Positions 4,630-23,528 of a stretch of DNA of 25,879 nt are shown here, in pieces. The stretch comes from a virus. The stretch's first letter is position 1. Each line of letters opens with the position of its first letter. Position numbers and translations under genes: made by a program. The stretch covers positions 1-25,879 of the IMG/VR virus record IMGVR_UViG_3300047369_000786; one strand, 5' to 3'. The notes beneath the pieces are model-generated. The model saw nothing but the letters and a program-made list of their open reading frames with translations, did no database searches and had not been told where the DNA came from.

Positions 4630-4631
4630 AC

Positions 4632-7600
4632 ATGGCAGTCATTATAAATCTTAAAGAACTATTCTCATCCGATGCACAAGACATCTATGTAGACAAGGTA
4701 AATTTTAACTTTAATAAACTTTTAGAGTTAGGAATAGGACAGCCTGGTCCTCAAGGTATTACTGGTCCATTGGGTTCAGCAGGTCCTCAAGGGATTCAAG
4801 GAGATGACGGTCAACGTGGAAATAAATGGTTTGTTGGAATAGGAGATCCAAATACTCAAACTTTTCCTGGATTAATCATAGGCGACTTTTATCTAGAAAC
4901 AACCACAAGTAGTGTATATCAATATCAAGGATCCCCTGCCTCTTGGATTATGATTACTGATTTTACAAGTATTGTAAATAATATAATAACAGGTTCAACA
5001 ACTCCTTTTGTTAGAGGATTTGGGTTAGCCAGTCCCGATGATCATAGATATATTACGTTTACTAGACATGGAAATGATTTAGCTGATATCACAACAGATA
5101 TCAACTTAGGAAATAGCGCAAATAATGATACTTTACTCCTTAACAACTGGAATGAAAAAGTAACTACTATAGATAATTTTCCAACATCAACCGATGATGA
5201 ATTTAATTCTATACAAACATTATCTGTTGATCACACTATTACTCCGCTTGGTAGATATCATTTAGAACTAGGTTCATTATATAAAGATGGACCTGATACT
5301 TTACTTAGTGATCTTAATAATAATTTAAAACTAAGATATACTAAAGAAATAGCTACTCCTACTTATTATCCTGCGTCTAATGGTACTATTAATAAAGCTA
5401 AATTTTCATTAACTTTACCTGAATCTGAAACAAATTTAAGTTTAATAGATCAGCAAGGATTTTTTGAATTTGAAACACCTTTATACAATATAGAATCAGT
5501 TGCTAGTCAATCTAGATTTTATACAAAAATTGGAACTACAGAGCCTTTAAAAGAAACTTCAGCCCTGGATATTTCTTCAGACGGTATAGAATTTAAATTA
5601 AATTTACATTCTCTGTCTCTTGGTATGGTAAGATCAATACAAGACCAAATAAACAGCGGTTCAAATAGGCTCCCTTCGTATATGGATGGAGATTATGGAA
5701 TTTTAAATATTTCTGATTCATTAAAAGGTACCTTTATAAAAGAAAATGTTTATCATACTAGAGGCAATATGGAAAAAATTCATACTCACAATGAGTTTGA
5801 ATCTAGTAACATTACAAGCTTGGGAGGTATAGCTGGAATAGGTGGTGTTCAAGGTATTTGCTCAGATGGAAAATACGTAATGGCAGTTTCTCAAGACACA
5901 GATGCGACTGTTAATGGTAGCGGTGGCCTTGTTATATTAGACGTTTCTAATCCTAACGAACCCGTTACTCTAGTTAGTACTACGACAACGTCTCTTCCGC
6001 CAACGCCGTTTGCCCCTCCGCCTGACGACTATGATGTTCATGGAAACGCGTCCGGAAATGGGCCTTTTGATGGGTATAGTTCCAGTTCAAATAATCAGAT
6101 GAATTTAACCCCATTAACAAACGCTAGAGATATTGCTTTTAATGGAAATATAGGGGTCATAGTTAGACAAAAACCACAACCACCTTCGGGACCGCCCATA
6201 CCAGGATTTGACTATAGATATGATACCTTTTTAGTTTTTGAATTTGGAGTAAATCACCCTAATTCCGACAGACCGTCGAATATAAAAAATATATCCTGGT
6301 TAAACGGAAGTAATACTTTTTCAAACTTCATGTCCGGTAGTGATTTCAAGGGAGATACTAACATTTCAGAATTAGACGATTTAAAAAGGGTTCGATTAGT
6401 AGGAAATACTGCATATTGTATATCTGGCCCTGATCAACTTTCAGGTTTTGTTGCCGGTTTGGATTCTTATTTTATAGCTATTGACTTAACCAATCCTCAA
6501 AGACCTTATCTTTCGTCTCAAAATATAAAAACTAGTGCAGATTCTGCCCATATAGATTTTGACATATCTGATGAAGTTGCGTATGTAGCTTCTTTATATT
6601 CTACAGGTTTTGTGTGGTCACTTAATCTAGAAAAATATTCATTAAGCTCTCTTAGAACGTTAAGCCAAGGCTCATTAATAACTAACACTACTCTCATACT
6701 TAGTGGACCCCTAGCGACCCTTCCATCTAATTCTAGAGGATGTGTAAAAGTAAAAGGTCAACAGGTTTACGTAGGTTTTGGTGATAGAATATATATTAGA
6801 AATATAGATCTAGCCCTAGACGAGGTATGTAGCCCGATAAGTACTATATTATTATCAGATTCTTCATATGCGGTTCATGACTTACAAATTTCAGGAAAAT
6901 ATATTTATGCAAGCATCACAGACGGAACAGATAGTGCTTTAGTAGTATATGATATTACAGATTTAGCTAATCCATTTGAAGTAGATGGTATTAACATTAA
7001 TGATACCGATTCTATCATTAGTAGATCAACTCTAGTAGGTAATGAATTATTTACCGTAAATGAAGATAATAAATCTGGAACAACGGTTAATAAAATAAAT
7101 TTAGGTGGAATTGTTTCTCCATTAGGAAGAATAGGGAATCTACATTCAAACGATTTAAGAGTATCTGAAGATGCCTTTGTAGGAGGAGACATGTATGTAG
7201 GAAATTCTATTTCAGCAGGAAATGGTGGAATACAAACAGGTAGATTTGGATTACACTCAACCGGTCCTATCGTTGTAGACGCAAATATGATAAGTAACTT
7301 AGTTGATGCTTATACAGGGGTTAATTCTAATATAAGAGGCTTTGTAAATCAAGAAAACAATCCAACTACTTTAGCTAGGCCAATAGCAGCTACTATAAAC
7401 GACATGGATTTAACACCTAATACTCTTGGATCTCCTGGTCTTTATCAAATATCAGGTTTAGATATCCTTGCTAGTGATATAGATTTTCCACTCGCAGCAG
7501 ATACATTACTCGCTGAGTTCTATGGACTAAGAATGATTATTAGTAACGTAACTGATAATGAATTAGCAGGTGATCCTTCTACGTTAAAGAAATATGGATT

Positions 7601-8451: not shown

Positions 8452-8802
8452 ATGGGATTAAAAGTAACAAGTAAAATATTCACAGATAATGGAGATACTA
8501 GCGAAGCGTATCTAAACATTCCTAGCATTAAATATCTTAAAGATCAATGGGTTGGTTTATCTAATAAAACTGATTCTTTAAGTATAACGGTAAATACTTA
8601 TCTTAATAGAGAAGATAGAAAAGAAGATAGTAGTAATAAAGTTAATAGTTCTTCTATAAAAAGAAATTATTCATGGGTATCTGAAACAAGTCCAAATCCA
8701 TTATCTGGACTTAAAGAAGGTGAAAGCGTATTTAAAGTAGCATATGATTTACTTAAAAATGAATTAGAAGCAGAAGGTCTATCAGTAGAAAACGATCTTT
8801 AA
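8452..8802 (+). CDS. Small hypothetical protein, probably virion-associated
   Basis: This 116-residue protein is not recognised. It starts one base after the stop of the fibre gene, so it is very likely co-transcribed with it. It is hydrophilic, has no signal peptide or membrane segment, and has a Ser/Asn/Lys-rich centre (about residues 52-70) flanked by more ordered ends. The C-terminal part (FKVAYDLLKNELEAEG) looks helical. It could be a fibre-assembly partner or a minor baseplate protein; that is only suggested by position. Its TAA shares the bases TTAA with the stop of the convergent gene on the other strand. Confidence 0.65.
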   Translation: MGLKVTSKIFTDNGDTSEAYLNIPSIKYLKDQWVGLSNKTDSLSITVNTYLNREDRKEDSSNKVNSSSIKRNYSWVSETSPNPLSGLKEGESVFKVAYDLLKNELEAEGLSVENDL

Positions 8803-8817
8803 ATAAAGTCTTCTGAT
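8781..8817. terminator. Possible weak bidirectional terminator between convergent genes
   Basis: ATCAG (8781-8785) can pair with CTGAT (8813-8817), and inside it CTTTA (8797-8801) with TAAAG (8804-8808). The structure straddles the shared stop codons of two converging genes. The stems are short and AT-rich and there is no strong T-tract, so this is only a candidate. Confidence 0.22.
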
Positions 8818-9620
8818 AATTTAAAAGGTAATATATTTTCATCTATTAGAATATCTAAAGCATTTTCTAATAAGTTAGGATCAAATCTGCTTTCGTTAGC
8901 CATCAACTTATTTAATAGAATCGTATTTTTTATAGAATCTGATATATTATCTAGGTTTAATTCATGTTCTTTACATATACAAAATAATAAATTTAAATCT
9001 GGATCTAACTTATTTAGCTCGGGGTTGTTTATTTCTTCAATAACGTTTTTTATAGGAGTCTCTTCTATATTTTCTATATCTAAAGTTTCTACTTTTGAAA
9101 ATTTGTATCCTTTAGAAAATCTTCTATCCATTTTTAATTTCCATATTTGATAAACTTGAGTTTCATTAACATTTACTAAAACATAAATAGTGTTTAATAA
9201 ATGAATCTCACTATTTACATAATATACGTTAAAGTTTTTTATGTTAAATATATCACATTGTTTTTCTAAATAGTCTATGCATAGGTTTCTAAATATCTCA
9301 TTTGCACGCTTAACGGTTTCACCTGATTCGTTATCTTTTTTATAAAAAAGAGATAGTTCATTAGATATTTCAATAATTCTATCATTTCTCCATGAAGAGT
9401 TCATTTTAAAATCAAACATGTTACCGTCTAGTACTAGATTATTTAAATTTAAATAATGAAATAATATTTCATAAAAATATTCATTGTTTCCTTCTTTTAA
9501 GGCTTGACTATATTTTTGCTCAGCCGCCAGTAATACATAGTTGAAATATTCGGAGTCTATGTAATCCTTTTTCGTAATCCACATTGGATCTAATATATTT
9601 TTCGGCTTCAAAATTAGCAC
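8799..9620 (-). CDS. Hypothetical phage protein, 273 residues
   Basis: Not recognised as a named family. The frame stays open upstream to 10004, but everything beyond about 9730 lies antisense to the next gene and the first open residues read as low-complexity Tyr/Ile text. I therefore prefer the GTG at 9620, giving MLILKPKNILDPMW; an ATG at 9584 (MWITKKDYIDSEYF) is the alternative. The protein is mixed alpha/beta, with a Leu/Asn-rich motif HYLNLNNLVLDGNMFDFKM about residues 60-80 and acidic C-terminal helices. No signal peptide or membrane segment is seen. It is a single minus-strand gene between plus-strand virion genes, converging with 8452-8802 and diverging from 9730-11886. Its role is unknown; an assembly or morphogenesis factor would fit the context, but nothing in the sequence proves it. 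Confidence 0.7.
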   Translation of the reverse strand: MLILKPKNILDPMWITKKDYIDSEYFNYVLLAAEQKYSQALKEGNNEYFYEILFHYLNLNNLVLDGNMFDFKMNSSWRNDRIIEISNELSLFYKKDNESGETVKRANEIFRNLCIDYLEKQCDIFNIKNFNVYYVNSEIHLLNTIYVLVNVNETQVYQIWKLKMDRRFSKGYKFSKVETLDIENIEETPIKNVIEEINNPELNKLDPDLNLLFCICKEHELNLDNISDSIKNTILLNKLMANESRFDPNLLENALDILIDENILPFKLSEDFI

Positions 9621-9729
9621 ATTTATTTTATATATTTTACAAAAAATAGTCTTATTGGTTCTATCATAATTAAGTATTATATAATTAAATAAATAACAGT
9701 ATAGAGTATAAACATAATACATTGCATAA
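9621..9729. promoter_or_regulatory. Divergent intergenic region with late-promoter-like motif
   Basis: This 109-base, very AT-rich gap separates two divergent genes and must hold start signals for both. On the plus strand AATAAATA at 9688-9695 (followed by AC) lies 34 bases before the ATG at 9730 and matches seven of eight bases of the T4 late promoter TATAAATA. TATAAACA near 9709 is a second partial match. No equally clear motif was found for the minus-strand gene. Confidence 0.4.
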
Positions 9730-11886
9730 ATGAACATTACTATAAAAATTATACCTGAGTCGGGTTCAAATACACTAACTTTTAGTAAAAATTTTAGAAT
9801 ATTTTCTATAGCTGATCCTATTACAGGTGTGACTGGAATATCTGACATACTAGAAGACATTGAAACCACTTCCCCTGGATCAGTTGATTTAACATATTTA
9901 AAAAGATATTTTAGGTACTCTTCTAATAATATAGATTGGTCTCTCTGGTATGGATTTTCTCCAAAAGATGTTGATCCATCTGGTTTAGATAGTATAGAAG
10001 ACATTGAAATAGATCCAGATCAATGTGTTTATATAGAAATAAAATATGAATATGATAACGGTACCTTTGAAGAATTAGATTCTCCAATAGAAATTGACGA
10101 AATAAAAATAAGAGCAAAAAGACATGACCCTGGATTACCTAATGTATTAACACCTATTGTATGTTGTACTGATGAAAAATGCCCAGCTCTAATATTTGAA
10201 AGAGAAGCAAGTTTTAGACCATATCAAGTAGATAGCGCTATTGGTATCTATAAAGAGTTAAGTTTTCACACTAATAAAATATTTGGCCATGAAGTTGTTT
10301 ATTTTAGGACTGTTCCAGAATCGGATAGCGGAGACTATATTTTTAAGGAATGGACTCTTTATAAAAATGTTGATAGGAAATGCGTAAAAATACTTGTACC
10401 TGACAACAATTTCCCAGATAATAAACCTAAGTTTTCAGAGTTTGGTATAGATTTTGAAGTTCCTTTTGAAATACATGTAGATCATAGGTATTTTCAATCT
10501 GTTTTTGGAAGCGACGCTGAACCTAGAAAAAGAGATTTTTTATATTTTCCTTTAATCAATAGAATGTTTGAAATTCAAGGTTCTTATTTACATAGAGGTT
10601 TTATGATGGAACCTAGTTTTTGGAAAATTCAACTTTATAAATTTAATCCAAACATAGATATGTTAATGAAAGACGAAAATCGTCAATTTATGGACAATAT
10701 TATAACGAGTGCAGAAGAATTATTCGCTGAGGAAGTAAAAGAAGACATACAGGATGCTAAGATGCCTGAACAATATGAAACTATATCTACTCGATACGAT
10801 ATCACTAGAGGCTCTATTCACCCTGATCTAAAAATAAAAAACATAAAGTTTAATTTTAACTTTGCATCTTTAATGGAGAATTACTATGATTTAAGTGGAA
10901 TAGAATCAACTACTAATAATTATTTTTTGACTAGCGACTCTCCTTTGATATCTACTTCTCAAGAATTAATAAATTCCGAAGGAACAGTTAATAGTAAAAA
11001 GTCATATAATGTAATTAGAGCATATCAAGATAGCTCTATTTTTAAAACTTGGCAAAATAATTCATTAATGACAAACGATAAAAACATATCTGGAATAGAC
11101 GTAAAATATTTAAGAGTTAGAGGTCCTTTTGACACCATACCTGATCACGTAGGACAATCTGAATCTGGAAGATATTTACAGCTCGAAGCATACAAAGATT
11201 TAAGTTTTACTAATCAAAGAAATATAATGGTTAGCACTGTTGATTCAAAACCAGCAGCAGTTTTAAAACTAAGAGAAACTTCTATTGTATATAATAGGCT
11301 TCCTGAATTTGGTTCAAATGGAATAGATAATTTATCATATACTTGTATGTTTAATGTTCCTGGAGATTCTGAAATAGTTAGTTTTATAAACGGCTATGAT
11401 AATGAATCTCAATCGGGTATATATTTTTATGCACAATTCAATAAGTATTTTGGAGATCAACCCGAAGGAGACTTAATACTTAATATAAAAGTAAATGATA
11501 ATTTAAGTACGTTTACTATAAGTAATTTTGAATCCGGTACATGGCACTCGGCTGTTATATCAATATCTAATGAATTTAAACAAATGGGAGTTTACTTATA
11601 TAAAACAATAGAAGACGCATCAGATTTAACTAATCACACTGATTTTAGTAAAATATTTGAAAATGTATCTTCAATGCAAGAAAAAAACTTTAAGTTAGAA
11701 CAGCCATATACCATACCTACTTCCAATTTAAAAATATCTAATATTAGGTTATTTAAAACCATGATAAAAGAGGAACAGCATGATTTCATATTGAGTCAAC
11801 AGTTCATTAAAGATGAATCTATGCTATTACTTATAGATAATTGTAGACCTCAAGTTAAAGTACCTTTTATAACAAGAAATAGATAA
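9730..11886 (+). CDS. Large baseplate/tail-fibre protein with FnIII-like and LamG-like regions
   Basis: A 718-residue soluble protein, probably a virion component. Residues about 36-130 read like a fibronectin type III-type beta sandwich (RYSSNNIDWSLWYGFSP, later YIEIKYEYDNGT and IDEIKIRAKR). A Cys cluster, CCTDEKC, follows near residue 144. Residues about 240-360 contain compact beta/aromatic text (VDHRYFQSVFG, FPLINRMFEIQGSYLHRGF) typical of phage structural proteins. From about 530 to 705 the pattern (YTCMFNVPG, IYFYAQFN, TWHSAVISIS, LKISNIRLFK) resembles a LamG/concanavalin-like jelly roll, a fold often used for glycan binding. These domain readings are by eye. An ATAAATA motif sits 34 bases upstream. 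The next gene begins 13 bases after the stop. Alternatives are a baseplate wedge arm or a short tail fibre. Confidence 0.72.
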   Translation: MNITIKIIPESGSNTLTFSKNFRIFSIADPITGVTGISDILEDIETTSPGSVDLTYLKRYFRYSSNNIDWSLWYGFSPKDVDPSGLDSIEDIEIDPDQCVYIEIKYEYDNGTFEELDSPIEIDEIKIRAKRHDPGLPNVLTPIVCCTDEKCPALIFEREASFRPYQVDSAIGIYKELSFHTNKIFGHEVVYFRTVPESDSGDYIFKEWTLYKNVDRKCVKILVPDNNFPDNKPKFSEFGIDFEVPFEIHVDHRYFQSVFGSDAEPRKRDFLYFPLINRMFEIQGSYLHRGFMMEPSFWKIQLYKFNPNIDMLMKDENRQFMDNIITSAEELFAEEVKEDIQDAKMPEQYETISTRYDITRGSIHPDLKIKNIKFNFNFASLMENYYDLSGIESTTNNYFLTSDSPLISTSQELINSEGTVNSKKSYNVIRAYQDSSIFKTWQNNSLMTNDKNISGIDVKYLRVRGPFDTIPDHVGQSESGRYLQLEAYKDLSFTNQRNIMVSTVDSKPAAVLKLRETSIVYNRLPEFGSNGIDNLSYTCMFNVPGDSEIVSFINGYDNESQSGIYFYAQFNKYFGDQPEGDLILNIKVNDNLSTFTISNFESGTWHSAVISISNEFKQMGVYLYKTIEDASDLTNHTDFSKIFENVSSMQEKNFKLEQPYTIPTSNLKISNIRLFKTMIKEEQHDFILSQQFIKDESMLLLIDNCRPQVKVPFITRNR

Positions 11887-11899
11887 ATAATAATAACAT

Positions 11900-12682
11900 A
11901 TGAATACAGATAATCAAAACATAAGAAATTCTAATACACAGGATATTTTTTTAAGAAACGCAGTTCTTGCCTTACTTGATATACTGAATAGAGAAATTAT
12001 AATAGATTTAGTTAGAGATGGCGAAATAGAGAAACATGAAATTCCTTTTTTCTATAATATGGCAGCTGACGAAGGATTCATGAAAGATTTTTTTATACAA
12101 GTACCCGATGGTTGTAAAGTTCCAGTCCTAGCTGAAGGAAATTATGATATAATCCCTAGAGGAGTTGTAACCTTAGATTCATTTCAAATAAAAACAAGTG
12201 ATATAACCAATAAATTTGTTAGAGGTAGTTTCAACCAACAGGTTTTAGACGACAATGATCAAAAGGTAAATAAAGCCTTTTCAGCAAGATTATATAGCAT
12301 GCCAATGGGTTTAAAGTTTTCAGCTAAAATATTATGTGATAACCTAAACAAAACCTTTAAGATAATGGAAAGAGTTATTGATTTGTTTTATAAAAATAGA
12401 GTAGTTTATTTTCAATATAAAGGGGTTAGAATACCTGCTCAGTTTACGTTCCCTGACACTGAAGCTTTTGAAAAAAAGTATGAATTTGATTATACAACAG
12501 ATCAACGTGTAAAAATATCTTTTAGTATAGATATGGAAACATATTTTCCTAGCTTTAATGAAGATTCTGTTTTCTATAAAGGAAACACTATAAATCAAAT
12601 TGGATTAAATACAAAATTAGAAGACACGGGTGTTAATATAAATGATGCATGGATAGACAAAGATCATCCTCCAAGTGAATAG
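11900..12682 (+). CDS. Tail sheath stabiliser/completion protein, T4 gp15-like (probable)
   Basis: A 260-residue protein whose layout resembles T4 gp15, which forms a ring capping the tail tube and sheath and joins tail to head. Seen here: an N-terminal helix with LDILNREIIIDLVRDG, a strand followed by IPFFYNMAADEGFMKDFF (about residues 48-66), a PRGVVTLDSF strand near 88, a region of small beta strands with SMPMGLKFSAKI, then a helix NKTFKIMERVIDLFYKN (about 150-166) and a final beta segment ending MDMETYFPSF-like text (IDMETYFPSF). T4 gp15 shows the same order of helix, strand, 'FMMKL'-type segment and late helix, and is of similar length (about 270). The match is remembered, not computed. 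A GATAAATA motif overlaps the upstream stop, 10 bases before the ATG. Confidence 0.6.
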   Translation: MNTDNQNIRNSNTQDIFLRNAVLALLDILNREIIIDLVRDGEIEKHEIPFFYNMAADEGFMKDFFIQVPDGCKVPVLAEGNYDIIPRGVVTLDSFQIKTSDITNKFVRGSFNQQVLDDNDQKVNKAFSARLYSMPMGLKFSAKILCDNLNKTFKIMERVIDLFYKNRVVYFQYKGVRIPAQFTFPDTEAFEKKYEFDYTTDQRVKISFSIDMETYFPSFNEDSVFYKGNTINQIGLNTKLEDTGVNINDAWIDKDHPPSE

Positions 12683-12684
12683 TT

Positions 12685-13845
12685 ATGGAAATAAGAAAGA
12701 AGTATAAAATAGATCTACCTAAAGACATTCTAATGATACGAGATGTATTCAAAAAGAATGGATATAAATTATATTTAGTAGGAGGTGCTGTGCGAGACGC
12801 AGTGTCTGGTATCAATCCAAAGGATTACGATTTAGCTACAGACGCGCTTCCAGATAAAGTTAATGAAATGTTATTTCCTATCTATAAAATGTTACCTATA
12901 GGGGAACAATTTGGAATATGGCTAGCTATAACCCCAAGCGGAGAATTTGAAATAGCAACTTTTAGAGAAGACGTTGGAACAGGAAGAAGACCAGATGACG
13001 TAACTTTCACAACCATAGAAAATGATGTTAAAAGAAGAGACTTAACAATAAATGCTCTATTTTACGATATTGATACTGAAGAAATAGTAGATCTAGTTGG
13101 GGGAATAGAAGATTTAAAAAATGGAGTAGTTAAAACAGTTGGCGATCCCAAAGATCGTTTTTCAGATGATAAATTAAGAAAGCTCAGAGCCATACGTTTC
13201 GCCGGTGTTACGGGATCTGAATTAGATAAAGCCATACATGACTACTTACTAAAAGATCCTAATTTAGATGGAATATCATCTGAAAGAATTAGAGATGAAT
13301 TTCTAAAGGGTATTGCTAAATCTTCATCAGTTGTATACTTTATGAATCTATTAGATAAATATAATTTTTTTCAATATATTTTTCCAAATCTAAACACGAA
13401 TGCTAATTATATAGAAGAAAAAGACTACATAGTAAACCTCGCTACGCTTCTTAAAGAAAATGATTCGATTGAACTTAGAAACGCTTTAAATAAAGCAACG
13501 TATTCCAACGAGGAAATAAAAAATATTTTATTTTTAAAATCCCTTCTTCATTTAAATGAAAATAACGTATTAGATATAAAAAAGTCTCAATACAATACTT
13601 CTGTAAACAATGATCAGATACTAAAATTTTCAAAACTAAATGGGTTAGATGAAAAACTAATAAGTACTTTTATTCAATATATACCTAGTGTCAGTGGTAA
13701 AGATGTTATGGATAAGATGAACATTAAAGGTGGACCTGAAGTTGGCAAATATATAAACCAAATGGAAGTAGACATATTTAAAAATTTAATGTCAAATGAA
13801 TCTTACCGTTTTAAATACATAAAAGAATTTATAAATTATGAATAA
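12685..13845 (+). CDS. cca: CCA-adding enzyme / poly(A) polymerase family nucleotidyltransferase
   Basis: A 386-residue class II (bacterial-type) nucleotidyltransferase. Visible motifs in order: LVGGAVRD (31-38), the metal-binding pair DYD (47-49) in PKDYDLAT, a strand EFEIATFRED (87-96), the flexible-loop text TGRRPDDVTFTT, RRDLTINA (117-124), GDPKDRFSDDKLRKLRAIRFA (from 153) and the helix SERIRDEFLKGI (199-210). These cover the catalytic head and neck of the family; the C-terminal 170 residues are helical and diverged, and I see no HD domain. The enzyme should add CCA (or A) to RNA 3' ends in the cytoplasm, for example repairing host or phage tRNA ends; CCA addition and polyadenylation cannot be told apart from sequence alone. 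It starts two bases after the gp15-like gene and its end overlaps the next gene by 8 bases, so it is expressed with virion genes. No tRNA gene lies in this window. Confidence 0.88.
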   Translation: MEIRKKYKIDLPKDILMIRDVFKKNGYKLYLVGGAVRDAVSGINPKDYDLATDALPDKVNEMLFPIYKMLPIGEQFGIWLAITPSGEFEIATFREDVGTGRRPDDVTFTTIENDVKRRDLTINALFYDIDTEEIVDLVGGIEDLKNGVVKTVGDPKDRFSDDKLRKLRAIRFAGVTGSELDKAIHDYLLKDPNLDGISSERIRDEFLKGIAKSSSVVYFMNLLDKYNFFQYIFPNLNTNANYIEEKDYIVNLATLLKENDSIELRNALNKATYSNEEIKNILFLKSLLHLNENNVLDIKKSQYNTSVNNDQILKFSKLNGLDEKLISTFIQYIPSVSGKDVMDKMNIKGGPEVGKYINQMEVDIFKNLMSNESYRFKYIKEFINYE

Positions 13846-15411: not shown

Positions 15412-18135
15412 TTAAGCAAAAAACTGCACCGCTGGCATTTCACTTATAGTTCCATCTTGCTGCGTAGCCGTTGCTGGAAAAGACCCTCCACTAACCACTT
15501 CGGTTCCTTCAAACCATGCTACTGAAAGAGTATCTGGACATTCTATACCGTATGGCTTAGAAACAGTTGAGTCTAATGAAACTGCTAATACTACATCTTC
15601 TCCTCCTGTAAATGATAGACTTTGTCCTGTCTCAGCTGTCATTGTGTATGACTGTACATCGTTTGGGGTGGTTACTTGATTACTCTGTCCTACTAATACT
15701 GCTGTTGGGCCTGATCCTCTATATATTGCACAACATGTAATACCACTTCCAGAAGTTGAAAATGCCATTTTAGCAGTGGCAACTGTTATGTCAGCAGGTA
15801 TCGTATAGTTTATAAAAAATATTTGACCCGTACCTGGATAAGTTATCTCTTTTCCTTGCCATATTTCTATTCCTATTGTTGATATTGAACCCCTGTTGTT
15901 TTCCCAGCTGGCGTTACCTTGAGAATCTGACGTAAGAATTTTACCGTTTCCTTCTGTTCCATCTTCTAACCTTAAAGAATAATTGTTAGATCCTCCTTGA
16001 ACTGAAATTTTCATCCCAACATTAAGGGTAGAATTTGTATTTATAGCAATATTTCCACCTAACACGCTTGTTAAAGAAGCGCCACCTGTACTTACTAACT
16101 CAGTTTCAGCACCTATCATATTAGTTGCAGTAGGTCCTGGATTAATATAAATCCTAGACCCAGTGTTACTTAAGCTGTCTCCGTTAATAGTAGTAAGCGA
16201 TCCAAATATAGCCGCTGCATTTGTATCGTTTAATTCTGTTTGTATTCCGTATATCTTTGGTAAACTTCCACTTGTTACGTGAGCACCATTTGATTTAATT
16301 ACTGAACCTGATTTACTAGATACATTAGTAGCACTATTCATAATTATCCAGTTCCCAGCACTTTTCGATTTATTATTAGCATCATTTTGTATACAATTAA
16401 CTAAGCCTATATCAGAATTGGTAGCACTTGCGGATCCATATAATCCAATTTTAACACCATACATCGATGTAGCACTGGTTCCACTAGAAGATACGTTTAA
16501 ACCTACGCTATTTGCAGTGCTCAACGTAGACGTTTGACTTAGTTGCATGCTTGTGTCTAAACCGGTGTTATCTATATTGAAATGAACCTGACTAGATAAA
16601 CTGCCTATTCCTATTGTTGATCCATCGTCTAATAAACTTCCTAATTCTAGATTGTTACTTGCATCTTCTCTTAAAGTGGTGTTTGCAGTTCCTCCTGTAA
16701 TACTATCTCCTATTGTAAGACTTCCTCCCGCTGGTATAGATTGAGTTGATAGAATACCAGCGGCACTTGCCACTACCATTCTAGTTCCAGTTCCAGATAA
16801 GTTTGCCATTTCTATATTACTATCTTCGTCTATTACTAACCCGGTACTTGTTGCTCCTAAAGCATCCGTACTAAGAAATTGAATTTTTCCTCCGTTTTCT
16901 TTATTAGCTATTATAAAATTATCGTTAACGGTACTTCCATATCCAATATATCCTTTTTCACTAGTATTATCATAAAAGTCTATGAAATTTTTACCTAATG
17001 CGCTTACTGTCTCTAATCTAAGTATAGCTGAATCCCCTTTTATATGAACTTCTTGCTGAGGTGTATTTGTTCCAATACCTAATCTGTTTAAAGTATCATC
17101 ATATGCAAAATTAGCATTGTCTTGTCGTAGTTCTCCCATCAGTCCTATAAATAATACGGATTTAGATGTTCCAAGTCCTACGGTATTACCTATAGATAAT
17201 ACATCAGATACCGGTTTCCATTCTCCAGTTCCATTCATATCAACTGATCTCCATATATGGCCTTGTGTTCCACTGGTTTTTCTAAATTTCATGTCTCCAG
17301 CAAAACTATTAATAACAGATGCGTCTAATTGATTTATACCATAGAATTCTCCTGTTCCTTTTGTAATATTTCCTATTTCTCCTAGATATAGTTGATTATA
17401 ATTATCAACTGTTACGTCAGGCGTTGTTAATGTGACATCTCTTAACCTTATTCCATATACGTCAGGTAGTGTTCTTATATTACCGCTATATCCTATTTCT
17501 AAATCTACTCCTAATATTGTTCCAGTGTGATCAACTTTAGATTCAACTTCCGCATTATATCCTACTAACATAGCTGACCCTGAACTAGGCCCTGTAACGC
17601 CTCTAAAAATAACTCCACCTCCAACTGAATCTCCTTGAATAACTACGTCATTTCCAGCAGCTTCTACCTTAAACATGTTATTTGTATTAATAGCAGTTCC
17701 TATTGCCATATGAATTCCATCAAATAACAATCCTCCGTATGTAAAATCAGTACCCCCTGAGTTTACTCTAGGTATTTCATTTTGATTTCCTATAGTCACT
17801 CCACCTCCGGTTGATCCATTTGATGCAAGTGTTATTCTACCTTGAGAATCAATGGTTATATTGGCATTTGTATATGATCCTGGAGTCACAGAGGTATTTG
17901 CTAAGTCTATTGTTCCTGAACCGGTAATAATTCCTCCGTTCAAGCCAACTCCTGCAGTTATTGATGTTACAGTACCTCCACCCGCTAGTGATTGCCAGGA
18001 TATGTTTCCTGCTCCATCTGTTACTAAAGCTTGACCTAAAATTCCGTCAGCCATAGGTAAAGTAAACGCTCCATTTCCAATAGTTAGCTCATCTACCGAT
18101 AGGTTTATGTATTTTCTAGTAATTTTTGGTGGCAT
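15412..18135 (-). CDS. Long tail fibre protein, 907 residues
   Basis: A Gly/Ser/Thr/Asn-rich fibre. The N-terminal region has the text common in phage fibres: ILGQALVTDGAGNISWQSL (about 31-50), then Gly-rich turns and TVTSITAGVGLNGG, and ANITIDSQGRITLAS. Near 351 comes LGIGTNTPQQEVHIKGD, a motif frequent in repeat-built fibres and often found upstream of S74 domains, though no S74 domain is present here. GKILTSDSQGNASWEN near 735-750 echoes the N-terminal TDGAGNISW motif. Residues about 753-907 form a distinct C-terminal head (IEIWQGKEITYPGTGQIFF, ITCCAIYRG, DVVLAVSLD), the most likely receptor-binding part. Base composition is visibly richer in G+C than the flanking baseplate genes. A GATAAATA motif lies 21 bases upstream. 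Confidence 0.82.
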   Translation of the reverse strand: MPPKITRKYINLSVDELTIGNGAFTLPMADGILGQALVTDGAGNISWQSLAGGGTVTSITAGVGLNGGIITGSGTIDLANTSVTPGSYTNANITIDSQGRITLASNGSTGGGVTIGNQNEIPRVNSGGTDFTYGGLLFDGIHMAIGTAINTNNMFKVEAAGNDVVIQGDSVGGGVIFRGVTGPSSGSAMLVGYNAEVESKVDHTGTILGVDLEIGYSGNIRTLPDVYGIRLRDVTLTTPDVTVDNYNQLYLGEIGNITKGTGEFYGINQLDASVINSFAGDMKFRKTSGTQGHIWRSVDMNGTGEWKPVSDVLSIGNTVGLGTSKSVLFIGLMGELRQDNANFAYDDTLNRLGIGTNTPQQEVHIKGDSAILRLETVSALGKNFIDFYDNTSEKGYIGYGSTVNDNFIIANKENGGKIQFLSTDALGATSTGLVIDEDSNIEMANLSGTGTRMVVASAAGILSTQSIPAGGSLTIGDSITGGTANTTLREDASNNLELGSLLDDGSTIGIGSLSSQVHFNIDNTGLDTSMQLSQTSTLSTANSVGLNVSSSGTSATSMYGVKIGLYGSASATNSDIGLVNCIQNDANNKSKSAGNWIIMNSATNVSSKSGSVIKSNGAHVTSGSLPKIYGIQTELNDTNAAAIFGSLTTINGDSLSNTGSRIYINPGPTATNMIGAETELVSTGGASLTSVLGGNIAINTNSTLNVGMKISVQGGSNNYSLRLEDGTEGNGKILTSDSQGNASWENNRGSISTIGIEIWQGKEITYPGTGQIFFINYTIPADITVATAKMAFSTSGSGITCCAIYRGSGPTAVLVGQSNQVTTPNDVQSYTMTAETGQSLSFTGGEDVVLAVSLDSTVSKPYGIECPDTLSVAWFEGTEVVSGGSFPATATQQDGTISEMPAVQFFA

Positions 18136-18205: not shown

Positions 18206-20158
18206 CTAAACTATCACTGCTTTAACGTTTCCAACAGGATTAATTAGAAATGTAATATCAACCGTTGTGGTTGTTGCATTACTTATTTCTGTAGTTATTA
18301 CTTTTCCTGATGTAGCATCCCATAGTTGAACTATGATATCAGATGTTCCTAAATTATGAGTAATTGTATTAGCAGATCCTGCGATACCTGGTGTAAATGT
18401 TACAACTGCCTTACCATTTGTTATGGTAGATTTTACCCATTCTTTTGTAACGTATACATTATCTGGTTCAGTATCTATAGCAATTGTTGAGTCTCCTGGA
18501 TTCCATACATTTGTTATATCAGTCCATAATAAATGATTTCCATAAGTAGTATTTCCTTGATTTAAAGTATATGAAAGACTCGTCGATGTTAATTCAAACT
18601 CACCAGTAGGTCCTTGATTATATGTTCCGCCATTTATAAAAGCACCGTTTACTATTATTAGCCTTCCATCGTTATTTACGGTAATTCCAGGGAGTATTTC
18701 CATATCTCCCCATACAATATACATTGCGTTTTCAGGTATATTTAAATCAGACGTAATAGTGTGATATATTCCAAATCCACTTGAAGAAGCTCCACCTGCT
18801 GATACTACAACTACTCTTACGCTTGCTAAGTCTTGAGTAAATGTTAAATCTATTGAATCTGTGGTATAATTATCTATATCGCCATCTATTCTGTCTCCTG
18901 TGACAGTGTCTATTAAATCTACAACTACTCCGTTTGTACCTAATCCATGTGTTATTGTTTTTGTTACATTAGCGATAAAGTTTGTTGTTTCTACATATGA
19001 TGCATTTCCTGCGCCTCCTCCACAACATGGATAAGTTTTTTCATACTCCAGAGATACCATGACCTCTTCATTAAAACCTCCTGTGCTACTTCCTGCCGTA
19101 ACAGTACCTTTTACTACAAGAACGTCTCCTTCGTTAACGTCTATATCTAATCCACTTGTTTCTAAAAGAAAATAATTTCCATCAACGTTAGCTGTATTTA
19201 ATGTTAATATATTAGAACCTCCTGTTAAATCAACATAGTTCGTATCATCAGCTACTCCGTTTGGATCAATTAATTTACCAATACTCACTTCGTAATTGAA
19301 TAGAGCATCTACGCTTGCTGCCGTTGTGTCTAAATATTTTAGAGTTATGCTTTTAATCTTTAAGTCAAATTGAATAGGTAAAACTGAATTATGCGTACCT
19401 GTAGGACTTAAAACTCCAGCCCAGTCTACGTATTCAGGAACAGCCCCGGCTGCAAAATTGGTAATTAGACCCCATAGCATGTCTTTGGTAGTCATGGTAC
19501 TTCCTCCACCACCACCGCCATTACAGCATGTTAGTCTAAATATTTCTCCATTCTCATCTGTAAAGTATAAATCCTGCGTAGTTGGGGTATATGTAGTTGC
19601 AAGACCTGGGTCTCCGATCCACACTATACCTGATCCTGTAGATGGAGTTGGTGGTATACCGGGGCTACCGGTATTCTGTAATAACGTAAGAGCATATAAC
19701 GCACCTCCATTATCGGTTAAACTTACCCATCCTTTTCCATCTAAGTATCCTATAAAATCTTCCCCGAACTCAGGTCTTTGGTTTTGAATACCGGTATAAA
19801 TAATCTCTCCAGGTATTCCTACATTTGGCCAGTTATTAAAATCAGTATGTCTATATCTCTTAGCTTCTGCTACTTCTACTAAAAATGAATTACCTTCAGC
19901 TCTACCTTGGGAGTCTATATTAAATGTAGTTACTCCATTTAAGCTTACGCTAAGGTTGTTATCTACATTAATCTGTTTTACATTAATGTTATTTATGCCT
20001 TCTATGGCGTTAGTCGTTTCATTATAAGAAACGTTATTCAAAAACTCAAGTAAAGCAAGTGACAGGTCATTGAAATTGAGGTTAGATACCTCTATAATTG
20101 AACCTAAGCTTGAATTAGTTAATCTTCTTATATTTGAAAGTTTGGAATATATAGCCAT
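18206..20158 (-). CDS. Tail fibre protein with duplicated beta domain, 650 residues
   Basis: A fibre or fibre-tip protein. The N-terminal 40 residues include EVSNLNFNDLSLALLEFL, similar in pattern to the N-terminus of the 4632-8450 fibre (KVNFNFNKLLELG), which may be a common baseplate-docking helix. Two Cys-Cys/Gly linkers, CCNGGGGGGS near 211 and CCGGGAGN near 378, separate globular parts. A domain of about 55-60 residues occurs twice: TKTITHGLGTNGVVVDLID to about 451, starting near 396, and ANTITHNLGTSDIIVQLWD from about 593 to the C-terminus. Both share T-I-T-H-x-L-G-T, a V/I-rich strand, an Asp-rich turn and a V-x-V-x-V ending. This His-x-Leu-Gly domain is common in phage fibres. GC is higher than in neighbouring baseplate genes. 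AATAAATA lies 22 bases upstream. Confidence 0.82.
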   Translation of the reverse strand: MAIYSKLSNIRRLTNSSLGSIIEVSNLNFNDLSLALLEFLNNVSYNETTNAIEGINNINVKQINVDNNLSVSLNGVTTFNIDSQGRAEGNSFLVEVAEAKRYRHTDFNNWPNVGIPGEIIYTGIQNQRPEFGEDFIGYLDGKGWVSLTDNGGALYALTLLQNTGSPGIPPTPSTGSGIVWIGDPGLATTYTPTTQDLYFTDENGEIFRLTCCNGGGGGGSTMTTKDMLWGLITNFAAGAVPEYVDWAGVLSPTGTHNSVLPIQFDLKIKSITLKYLDTTAASVDALFNYEVSIGKLIDPNGVADDTNYVDLTGGSNILTLNTANVDGNYFLLETSGLDIDVNEGDVLVVKGTVTAGSSTGGFNEEVMVSLEYEKTYPCCGGGAGNASYVETTNFIANVTKTITHGLGTNGVVVDLIDTVTGDRIDGDIDNYTTDSIDLTFTQDLASVRVVVVSAGGASSSGFGIYHTITSDLNIPENAMYIVWGDMEILPGITVNNDGRLIIVNGAFINGGTYNQGPTGEFELTSTSLSYTLNQGNTTYGNHLLWTDITNVWNPGDSTIAIDTEPDNVYVTKEWVKSTITNGKAVVTFTPGIAGSANTITHNLGTSDIIVQLWDATSGKVITTEISNATTTTVDITFLINPVGNVKAVIV

Positions 20159-20201: not shown

Positions 20202-21530
20202 CTAATTATTACGAGACTTGTTTATTAGTTCGGTTTTATCGTCTATCTTAGATTCTTGAGAAAAGTTACCATCGAAAACCACACAATTTTTTAGATCAGC
20301 ATTTATTATATCATCTAAATTACTGTATATAGATGATGACGCTATCTCATTTAAATGTCCTCCATATTTACAATCAAATATTTTAGAATATTTTATATCA
20401 TTATTAGAGTGTAAATTACTTTCTTTTATATTAGAATTTCTAATAACGCACTGTTCAAATAGACAGTTTTCTAAATCTGCTTCTATACGACAGTTAAAGA
20501 AGTCCATTTCTGATAGAGAAAAGCCTTTTTTAATTCTGGCATCTTTTACTTGTACTCTTTTCCTAGCTGTATCGAAATTTATAACAGCCTTATTCATTTC
20601 ACAGCATGAGATTAATTCAAATAACTTATTTCTAATAACAGGGTAGTTAGACTCTATTAAAAAAGAATGTCTAGTTAAGTCAACTAAGAGATGTATATCT
20701 GGATAACTATGTTTAAAGGTATCGTATGTTTTAGTATTATCGATTATCCTTTGATATCTTTCAAGTAATTTTTGTATTTTTCTTTTTTCATCTACATTAA
20801 ATGAAAAATTATTTTTTAAAGTTTCATATAAATGCTCAGCTGTATAATTTATCAATTCAACTGATTCTTTTTTCTTTCTTTGATAATTCTTACCTCCAGC
20901 GTATTTAACCGATAGGTATCCATCCTGTATGTTAGAAAAATCGGTTCCGAAATTTGAAGATTTAGGAAAATTATATTCCATTGGATTCGCTTTTTCAAGT
21001 AAAGATCCTGTTAATCTACTTGCGTATAATTCTTTAGGATACACAAAAATCGCCTTACTCTGATGTATCTTTTGTTTTTCAGAAGAAGATTCTGGCCACA
21101 TTTTAAATATATTTCTTTCATTTATATTTAAAATATATTTAAACTTATTAAGAGTTTCAAGTCTATCTTTTAATCCTAGATCCATTTCATTTAATGAAAC
21201 TTTTATATTCATATTAGATCTACTATTTGTAAACCCATTTTCATTTATGAAATTCATACACTTTAACATGATATGAATACCTTCATGATATGGCATTAAA
21301 TCAGTATCTATTCTATTCATTTTATGTCCACCTTCGAAATCAGGAGATACATAAATCGCTTCGTCAACGAATTTTATTTTTGATTTATTAGCTAGCGGTA
21401 TTACATTTTTTCCTAAATATCTGCTTAATTTAGAAGATATTTTTTTCCTAGATAAAGGAGAAAAAAACTGAAAGGTAAATCCTATATTAGTATTATCAAA
21501 AAGAAACTTATTTTCTATATTATTATACAC
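20202..21530 (-). CDS. Amidoligase-like protein with C-terminal pentapeptide-like repeats
   Basis: A 442-residue protein starting at GTG (21530); a promoter-like GATAAATA 16 bases upstream supports this start. Residues 17-115 have the outline of phage proteins related to the amidoligase (ATP-grasp-like carboxylate-amine ligase) family: GFTFQFFSP (17-25), PDFEGGHKM (63-71), LMPYHEG (78-84) and NMNIKVSLNEMD (106-117). In the versions I recall, the first motif reads E-x-E and the last H-I-N-x-S; here the Glu and His positions are Thr/Gln and Asn, so catalysis may be lost. The middle is helical and Lys-rich (about 215-265). Residues about 338-423 read as pentapeptide-like repeats (FNCRIEADLENCLFEQC), suggesting a right-handed beta helix. 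It could modify or bind a virion or cell-wall component, or be a structural derivative. The family assignment is tentative. Confidence 0.5.
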   Translation of the reverse strand: MYNNIENKFLFDNTNIGFTFQFFSPLSRKKISSKLSRYLGKNVIPLANKSKIKFVDEAIYVSPDFEGGHKMNRIDTDLMPYHEGIHIMLKCMNFINENGFTNSRSNMNIKVSLNEMDLGLKDRLETLNKFKYILNINERNIFKMWPESSSEKQKIHQSKAIFVYPKELYASRLTGSLLEKANPMEYNFPKSSNFGTDFSNIQDGYLSVKYAGGKNYQRKKKESVELINYTAEHLYETLKNNFSFNVDEKRKIQKLLERYQRIIDNTKTYDTFKHSYPDIHLLVDLTRHSFLIESNYPVIRNKLFELISCCEMNKAVINFDTARKRVQVKDARIKKGFSLSEMDFFNCRIEADLENCLFEQCVIRNSNIKESNLHSNNDIKYSKIFDCKYGGHLNEIASSSIYSNLDDIINADLKNCVVFDGNFSQESKIDDKTELINKSRNN

Positions 21531-21576: not shown

Positions 21577-21801
21577 CTAATTAACTATTTGAATAGACAC
21601 TTCGTCCTTATGTATCCATACTTCTTTTCCTGCCATAAATGCTGTTTCATCTAAATGATCATATAAATACGTTTTTGTAGGATATTTAGCCAGCTGATAA
21701 ACACCTATTTCGTATCTCCAAGCAAATTGAAATTCTTTTTTTACTATTAAGTCCGGTAAGGTGTCTAATTTATTGTTGTAATCTTTTATTATAACTTTCA
21801 T
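21577..21801 (-). CDS. Small hypothetical protein, 74 residues
   Basis: Not recognised. The product is soluble, with an N-terminal strand-like MKVIIKDYNN, aromatic residues FQFAWRYEIGVYQLAKY in the centre and a Lys/Asp-rich end. It is the first gene of the minus-strand cassette, 46 bases before the amidoligase-like gene, and diverges from the gp6-like gene across a 65-base gap. No ATAAATAA motif is seen in front of it on the minus strand, so it may be expressed from a different type of promoter. Confidence 0.6.
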   Translation of the reverse strand: MKVIIKDYNNKLDTLPDLIVKKEFQFAWRYEIGVYQLAKYPTKTYLYDHLDETAFMAGKEVWIHKDEVSIQIVN

Positions 21802-21866: not shown

Positions 21867-23528
21867 ATGGCTACAACAGCTTCGAATTGGAAAATATTTA
21901 AATCATTAGATTATTCTGTACAGTTAATGCTAAAGCAAACGATAGGATATCTGTCTACTAAATTTAATCAAAGTTTACAAGTATTTACAGCAGCTAGTCC
22001 ATTTGGACAACTTTTATTAGTTTTAGAAAACCTTAGTCAAATGATTTTCTACTATATAGAAGACTCTATAACTGAATTAAGCATGGAAGAAGCCACCAGA
22101 GTGTCTTCAATATATTCATTATCTACTTTAGCTGGTCATAGTCCAAGTAGAGCAATATCAGCTGGTGGTCAAATAGCTTTATCAACTACATCAAATTCAG
22201 CAACGGCTGATTTTGATACTATATTAATTCCAAACTTAACAAAATTAAAATCTAAAAATAATGGGTTAAATTATGTGATAAGCTTATCACAAGATGATAT
22301 AAAATTTTCAATGAAAGGAAGCACTAACGGAACCTCTATGAAAATACTTCAAGGAAACATAGAAACACAGACCCTAGTGGCTAAAGGAGTAGAGATTGAA
22401 AGTTTTTCTATAAATTCAGCTCAAAACTTTTTAGTTGATAATTATTTAGTTGAAGTCTATGTCAATGGAGAAAAATGGAAACGATTTAATTCAATATTAG
22501 ACATACCCAGAGGTGAAAAGGGTTACATTATAAAAACTGGAATCACAACAGGAGTTGATGTATTCTTTGGAAATGATTTTTTTGGAAAAGTACCAGTTGA
22601 AGGATCGGAGATAAAGGTTCAGTATTTAGTAAATAGCGGTGCTTCTGGAAACATTACAACCGAACAGGTTTCACAAGTCTTGTTTGAATGGGCCGATACT
22701 GGTTTTACTTTAACTGGAAAAGAAATAGATTTAAATGAATACGTTAAAATAGATACATTACATTCTCCACAATTTGGAGCTAACCCAGAGGATTCAGAAT
22801 TGACTCGATTACTTGCTCCAAAACAATCTAAAAGTTTTGCTTTAGTTAACATAGATCATTACATAGCTGTTTTAACTAGGCTTAAGATATTTTCTATCAT
22901 AAATGTTTTTTTAGATGAAAATGACAATAGAATGTTGAATTTATTTTTAGTTCCGGATATTAATAATCTATTTAATACAGGTCAAGATTATTTTAATGTA
23001 GATCCTTCTAAGTTTAAGTTAACTGAATTTAGAAAAAATGAAATATTGAGATATCTAAATATGACAGGTTCAAAGCTAATTTCAACAGACACTAAAATAG
23101 TAGACCCTACTATTACAAAATATGTAATTAATATAAATACAATCGTTTTCGATGATGTAGCCACTGAAGTAATAAAGAGAGACATATATAATAATCTAGG
23201 AAATTATTTTATATCTAACAAGAGACGAACTAGAATACCTAAAAGTGACTTAATAAAAATATTAGAGGAAGTAAATGGAATAGATTCAGTAAATGTTAAT
23301 GTAGTGTCTGAAAATAATGAAATAGCAGTTATAGAAGACCCTAACTCTCAACTAGTTGGATTAGATGAATTTAATGATATAATAATAAAAGATTATGAGC
23401 TTCCTATTATACAAGGAGGGTTTAAAGACAGATATGGAAATGAATATTCACAAGGTATTTCTGAACAAGCGTTAGGCTCAGTAAATATACAAATTAAAAA
23501 AATAGTGCCTAGGCCATTTGATAACTAA
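21867..23528 (+). CDS. Baseplate wedge protein, T4 gp6 / baseplate-J family
   Basis: A 553-residue baseplate wedge protein (T4 gp6 is 660). Hallmarks of the baseplate-J family are visible: a helical N-terminus, then SLSTLAGHSPSRAISAGGQIAL (about 86-107; the usual A-x-x-x-G-x-x-P-x-x-A-x-x-A-x-G pattern), a central VNSGASGNI near 255, and GANPEDSELTRLLAPK near 304-319, matching the G-x-x-x-E-x-x-x-x-x-R-x-P segment of the family. The C-terminal half has repeated alpha/beta modules (INTIVFDDVATEVIKRDIYN) like the domains that form the inner ring of the wedge. It would act in the ring around the tail tube that triggers sheath contraction. It begins 66 bases from the divergent minus-strand gene, and its stop overlaps the next ATG (TAATG). 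Confidence 0.85.
   Translation: MATTASNWKIFKSLDYSVQLMLKQTIGYLSTKFNQSLQVFTAASPFGQLLLVLENLSQMIFYYIEDSITELSMEEATRVSSIYSLSTLAGHSPSRAISAGGQIALSTTSNSATADFDTILIPNLTKLKSKNNGLNYVISLSQDDIKFSMKGSTNGTSMKILQGNIETQTLVAKGVEIESFSINSAQNFLVDNYLVEVYVNGEKWKRFNSILDIPRGEKGYIIKTGITTGVDVFFGNDFFGKVPVEGSEIKVQYLVNSGASGNITTEQVSQVLFEWADTGFTLTGKEIDLNEYVKIDTLHSPQFGANPEDSELTRLLAPKQSKSFALVNIDHYIAVLTRLKIFSIINVFLDENDNRMLNLFLVPDINNLFNTGQDYFNVDPSKFKLTEFRKNEILRYLNMTGSKLISTDTKIVDPTITKYVININTIVFDDVATEVIKRDIYNNLGNYFISNKRRTRIPKSDLIKILEEVNGIDSVNVNVVSENNEIAVIEDPNSQLVGLDEFNDIIIKDYELPIIQGGFKDRYGNEYSQGISEQALGSVNIQIKKIVPRPFDN

Follow-up and report, generated by a model that had tools for sequence, protein, structure and literature searches.

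The window analysed here, a virus record of 25,879 bases, raises the question of what use a phage has for a protein that has the outline of an amidoligase, lies beside fibre genes and carries substitutions at the residues expected of an enzyme. The query ORF runs on the minus strand from 21530 to 20202, in a block that also encodes a 161-residue hydrophobic protein, a 74-residue protein and two fibre-like proteins, and the plus-strand genes of the window include a gp15-like tail sheath stabiliser (PF16724, E 2.3e-06). Phage amidoligases are often annotated and little understood, and the phage branch to which the query belongs, found in phages of up to 735 kb, often adjoins neck, baseplate or fibre genes. 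In one large-phage lineage, what was once an enzyme has probably turned into a structural or assembly component of the virus.

Table 1. Features of the query gene and its neighbours, with positions in the window
Feature	Position	Strand	Detail
Putative GS-like pseudo-amidoligase with predicted beta-helix tail	20202..21530	-	442 aa; GTG start at 21530, stop 20202-20204
GS-like amidoligase domain (predicted fold) and helical linker, residues 1-313	20592..21530	-	VIA match to 4bax; BFVD matches named amidoligase
Predicted C-terminal beta-helix, pentapeptide-like, residues 314-442	20205..20591	-	Strands in the model; family-profile matches
650-aa fibre-like protein, directly downstream of the query gene	18206..20158	-	tblastn pairing in query-clade and sister loci
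907-aa fibre-like protein	15412..18135	-	Same minus-strand block as the query gene
74-aa protein, upstream of the query gene	21577..21801	-	tblastn match in the query clade only
gp6-like baseplate wedge protein, divergent neighbour	21867..23528	+	phrog_219, E 1.2e-29
Residues 19-21, T-F-Q in place of E-x-E	21468..21476	-	E19 and E21 in 103/103 others, 0/10 in clade
Residue 73, R in place of E of E-L-x-T-G	21312..21314	-	E73 in 103/103 others; in clade R 8/10, S 2/10
Residues 108-110, N-I-K in place of H-x-N	21201..21209	-	In clade N or G at 108; K110 in 10/10
Residues 207-209, S-V-K in place of E-x-R	20904..20912	-	E207 and R209 in 103/103 others

Searched by itself, the query reached the cut-off of no Pfam family, giving only sub-threshold pentapeptide matches and one chance match; PF12224 (Amidoligase_2, cut-off 22 bits) was not listed for it at E≤1, and a PHROGs search returned no match. 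Its relatives connect it to that family. The sister protein L123, 41% identical to the query over the full length (alignment A4; tblastn E 7e-120), scored above the Amidoligase_2 cut-off over residues 14–212 (30.3 versus 22 bits), and the sister proteins as a group were 41–44% identical to the query across their full length, with every motif kept. PF12224 was matched by 15 of 53 intact representatives at E≤0.01, and a scan of whole records placed 3 of 22 above the cut-off, each at the amidoligase-family gene. An AlphaFold2 model of the query (pLDDT 84.9, pTM 0.80, weakest at residues 150–190 with pLDDT 51–60) aligned in VIA with glutamine synthetase (GS) 4bax at Z 11.2 (188 aligned residues, 3.5 Å, 5% identity), and all 50 matches listed were of the GS or GmaS type, with no ATP-grasp entry among them. 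GS was also the best PDB match in Foldseek (E 3.3e-04, TM only 0.27), and BFVD returned A0A6J5PQ40, an uncharacterised protein of an uncultured Caudovirales phage (full-length match, 41% identity, TM 0.95 over 439 columns), followed by many proteins named amidoligase from E 1e-10. The intact L123 protein gave a similar model (pLDDT 88.7, GS match at Z 12.7).

Judged by the predicted model and the 50 matches listed, the fold is most probably that of GS rather than ATP-grasp. The original prediction had allowed for an ATP-grasp-like/amidoligase fold; a GS-like amidoligase fold is present in the N-terminal domain, whereas ATP-grasp was dropped. Its central idea, that the protein was once an enzyme of the amidoligase type and has had key residues replaced, is supported by homology, fold and motif loss. 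The query has the fold and motif layout of the GS-like Amidoligase_2 proteins of phages and bacteria, but falls below reporting in that family, is without the catalytic residues and carries a predicted beta-helix tail; similarly, it resembles the GS/GmaS fold (4bax, 7cqw) but lacks the catalytic acids and has a different C-terminal part. On sequence grounds we place the protein in the amidoligase family by its ancestry, but do not count it as an amidoligase by function.

The segments on which the prediction was based lie at residues 17–22 (GFTFQF), 62–71 (SPDFEGGHKM), 79–84 (MPYHEG) and 106–112 (NMNIKVS) of the query. The E-x-E expected at the first of the substituted sites is real in relatives: beyond the query clade, the motif table shows it in all 108 of the distinct full-length proteins. 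At the expected H-I-N site, H108 occurred in 87 of 103 rows outside the clade, and the other 16 had Q. Two further sites that had not been noticed are also lost, since the query has R for the E of E-L-x-T-G and S-V-K for E-x-R. In alignment A4 (113 distinct proteins, 10 from the query clade and 103 others, with five INPHARED proteins omitted), E19, E21, E73, H108 and N110 were found in none of the 10 query-clade rows, which read GF[TS]FQF, x-I-D-x-x for E-L-x-T-G and [NG]-I-K for H-x-N; the E-x-R triplet was variable within the clade, E207 being kept in two rows and R209 in one. From what is established for the GS superfamily, we take the lost ExE, E of ELxTG, HxN and ExR to be residues for metal and ATP binding and for the reaction. 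The 80 non-sister rows share 46 positions with at least 95% conservation; of these, 17 are missing from every one of the 10 clade rows and 5 from every one of the 23 sister rows. Polar bias among the lost positions was not significant (13/29 polar versus 4/17 others, Fisher p 0.21), so the case for loss was built on the motif sites instead. These substitutions make it very probable that the active site of the query protein is dead.

A second clade, the group of L154 and L159–L180 (16 rows in A4), has Q-F-S for H-x-N, with Q-F-N in one row, and keeps E-x-E, E-L-x-T-G and E-x-R; its sequences suggest that activity there is perhaps altered rather than lost.

A tblastn search of phage records found five distinct huge phages of 462–735 kb (six records, two of which share length and position) whose proteins were 23–27% identical to the query, with E from 3e-16 to 9e-33 and two at 1e-16, and all five carried the intact motif set; a seventh match, at E 8, was discarded as chance. 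IMG/VR contained 15 further contigs with close relatives, 68–91% identical to the query. Profile scans found at least 492 relatives when an intact-form profile was used and 336 with a mixed profile, 80 of each being kept, and a clade-only profile found 15 loci, all of the query clade. Of 190 loci, 183 had ORFs of at least 380 residues, eight short ORFs being dropped, and collapsing rows with identical last 380 residues gave 118 rows including the query. A scan for cellular homologues, covering the contigs of 84,980 genomes, gave three loci, of which one lies on a 254-kb contig resembling a binned phage. In one intact-clade locus, L152, the copy is split into two ORFs (4370–5341 and 5367–5789), which may reflect assembly error or decay. 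We also asked whether the phage carries another, active copy as a substitute and found none: each of the 23 records examined had a single family member, those of the query clade being fragments, and no PF12224 match appeared in the query-clade records G000, G001, G002 and G004, all fragments.

In a quick maximum-likelihood tree of 50 rows, 8 of them from the query clade and with the root not fixed, the query clade occupied one branch (SH-aLRT 100) and joined the intact sister clade (96), with intact L151 outside. The simplest reading of these sequences is that the active site was lost once, on the stem of the query clade. Within the clade dN/dS was 0.037–0.217 (median 0.076; 33 of 36 pairs computable), and because dS exceeded 1 throughout and is saturated, these values are rough, though far below 1. 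Pairwise identity in L182, L186 and L181 was 91%, 79% and 68% for the query protein, 89%, 76% and 68% for the gp6-like baseplate protein, and 83%, 69% and 65% for the fibre. The query gene is under constraint, with identity close to that of the gp6-like protein and above that of the fibre.

Constraint on the domain is also compatible with a pocket that was rebuilt rather than abandoned, in which case the GS fold would now serve a new enzyme or a protein that binds a ligand, and several replacements are themselves uniform: E21 to Q and Y156 to H are fixed in 10 of 10 clade rows, K110 is present in all 10, and no residue but T or S occurs at position 19. However, the conserved acidic set is gone, E207 and R209 drift, and the model is uncertain around residues 150–190 (pLDDT 51–60), and we consider a rebuilt pocket unlikely.

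The genomic setting bears on what the protein retains. It had been placed beside fibre genes, and indeed the 650-residue fibre-like gene is directly downstream, with the 907-residue one in the same block. A homologue of the 650-residue fibre was next downstream in 13 of 13 query-clade loci, with 47–76 bases between the tblastn hits, and the same fibre N-terminal domain lay downstream in 34 of 37 sister loci, with 41–92 bases between hits; of the three exceptions, one locus lacked the domain and two ended too soon. In 37 of 37 sister loci the gene comes directly after a same-strand gene for a neck-like protein, whereas in the query clade the block is divergent from a gp6-like gene, and the 74-residue protein upstream had a tblastn match in every query-clade locus but L181 (12 of 13) and in 0 of 37 sister loci. 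Because the pairing spans two genomic arrangements, the amidoligase-family gene and the fibre gene appear to have been kept together through relocation, and because the intact sister clade has the pairing too, it is older than the loss of the active site. The link to the fibre is not general, the partner being absent from all 20 of the more distant intact loci examined. A gp6 homologue was downstream in six of these 20, and the head-tail adaptor/connector profile phrog_211 was matched by the downstream gene in four of seven distant loci scanned (L166, L085, L017 and L156), with no match in L043, L022 and L061.

The fibre N-terminal domains were also compared for signs of an abandoned substrate, and no convincing candidate emerged among lysines or acidic residues that the sister clade retains and that are missing here. 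At residue 47 of that domain, comparison of the sister and query clades showed a Q-to-E difference.

The published proposal for phage amidoligases, as given in two papers (PMC5498523, PMC10580990), is cell-wall modification with GATase and ATP-grasp partners, in which podovirus amidoligases would modify peptidoglycan against superinfection. Extended to the present family, it would make the intact proteins host-modifying enzymes acting on the cell wall or on protein, the dead copy a decoy against the enzyme or the host, and the fibre position incidental. The podovirus peptidoglycan-modification cassette of PSA-HP1 and LUZ24-like phages likewise includes a phage-coded amidoligase, with PF12224 in UFV-P2, but there the amidoligase genes adjoin ATP-grasp and GATase genes, whereas the query family adjoins tail genes. 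Such a cassette around the query family was rejected, GATase_6 being found in 0 of 21 family-bearing records, many of them fragments; PF14395 was also found in 0 of these 21, in a search where the controls were equally silent. Moreover, the gene lies in a tail/baseplate block and its pairing with the fibre survives changed surroundings. Host modification with a decoy copy is, on balance, improbable.

Elsewhere in the literature, PMC12619734 describes 'glutamine synthetase' genes in nine moraphages, and the word amidoligase is absent from the main text of PMC9723777. We found no pseudoenzyme reading of an amidoligase, or of a phage tail protein like this one, in the open-access literature; phage amidoligases themselves are already known, and we file the query as a catalytically dead variant.

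The C-terminal tail was retained together with the fold. A beta-helix was predicted over approximately residues 315–436 of the query, with short strands at high pLDDT, so that the proposed helical tail holds as a predicted structure, but not its length of 85 residues. Its pentapeptide-like character was evident for the family and not for the query alone, which stayed below the Pfam cut-offs (PF00805, 16.4 versus 20.2 bits; PF13599, 15.1 versus 38 bits); against solved structures, the family profile matched pentapeptide-repeat proteins, AlbG/MfpA-type chains, at E 4.6e-05 to 0.001, and Pentapeptide_4 was matched by 30 of 53 intact representatives at E≤0.01. The model of the intact L123 protein has the same tail strands as the query. 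Since intact relatives carry this tail as well, it was not newly added in the query lineage. Compared with the known pentapeptide-repeat proteins (AlbG, MfpA, Qnr), the query is alike in its predicted beta-helix and weak profile match, but its repeats are degenerate and fused to a GS-like domain. The matches to AlbG- and MfpA-type chains could mean that the tail is the working part, a Qnr/MfpA-like DNA mimic acting on gyrase with the dead domain as its carrier. However, the tail has no more than a mild excess of acidic residues (18 D+E versus 12 K+R in 105 residues), its repeats are degenerate and intact enzymes have the same tail, which makes a DNA mimic very unlikely.

That the substitutions reflect a decaying remnant or an assembly artefact is scarcely credible: nothing within the query clade points to it, the split copy in L152 belongs to the intact clade, and the query clade is present in 15 further contigs, with the frame open to each contig's reach and strong constraint.

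The catalytic residues are lost but the fold, tail, neighbour and constraint are kept, which argues for a pseudoenzyme with a binding role. Specifically, we consider it reasonably likely that the query is a pseudoenzyme belonging to a family of GS-like amidoligases particular to phages, and that it has been retained because it helps to assemble the fibre or baseplate or forms part of the virion. In the course of events that we envisage, the ancestor would have been a GS-like amidoligase with a C-terminal beta-helix, belonging to that phage-specific family. It would have bound a tail or fibre protein, probably the product of the gene next door, and may have modified that protein or something near it. 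On the simplest reading, ExE, the E of ELxTG, HxN and ExR were replaced on the stem of the lineage, while the protein kept its fold and beta-helix and its gene stayed beside that of the fibre. The descendant would thereby have kept the binding and lost the chemistry, and the present protein would bind the fibre and act as an assembly factor for the fibre or baseplate, or be present in the virion. Because the pairing with the fibre is older than the loss, the ancestor with its active site intact may already have served fibre or baseplate assembly, a proposition that we hold to be evenly balanced. A wider reading is more tentative and somewhat doubtful: this phage branch as a whole might use a GS-like amidoligase with a beta-helix in neck, tail or fibre assembly, the intact form covalently modifying a virion protein and the query lineage having become a permanent structural subunit, a virion pseudoenzyme.

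A copy that is dead yet conserved separates binding from chemistry. If the query protein is dead but retained, its remaining activity must be a non-catalytic part of the family's job, and a comparison of sister and query proteins, both acting on one kind of fibre, could then test what role the intact enzymes have.

Several other features of these genomes were recorded. In L124, the next gene after the sister fibre (11865–12821) matched phrog_4417, a family of no assigned function, at E 3.1e-65. Its product has a D-x-D stretch that we take to be reminiscent of glycosyltransferases. The genes preceding the intact amidoligase in L166 (6833–7999) and L085 (4828–6123) appeared by eye to encode repeated S1-type RNA-binding domains, with no PHROGs match. 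Within the tail gene block of the window, directly after the tail sheath stabiliser, lies a gene for a CCA-adding tRNA nucleotidyltransferase (12685–13845, plus strand), and a CCA-adding enzyme gene was likewise found in L110, L188 and L190. Finally, two ORFs of the window on opposite strands, 8799–10004 (minus) and 9730–11886 (plus), overlap by 275 bases, and the homologous matches to this pair overlap in some sister loci (L124) and not in others (L115).
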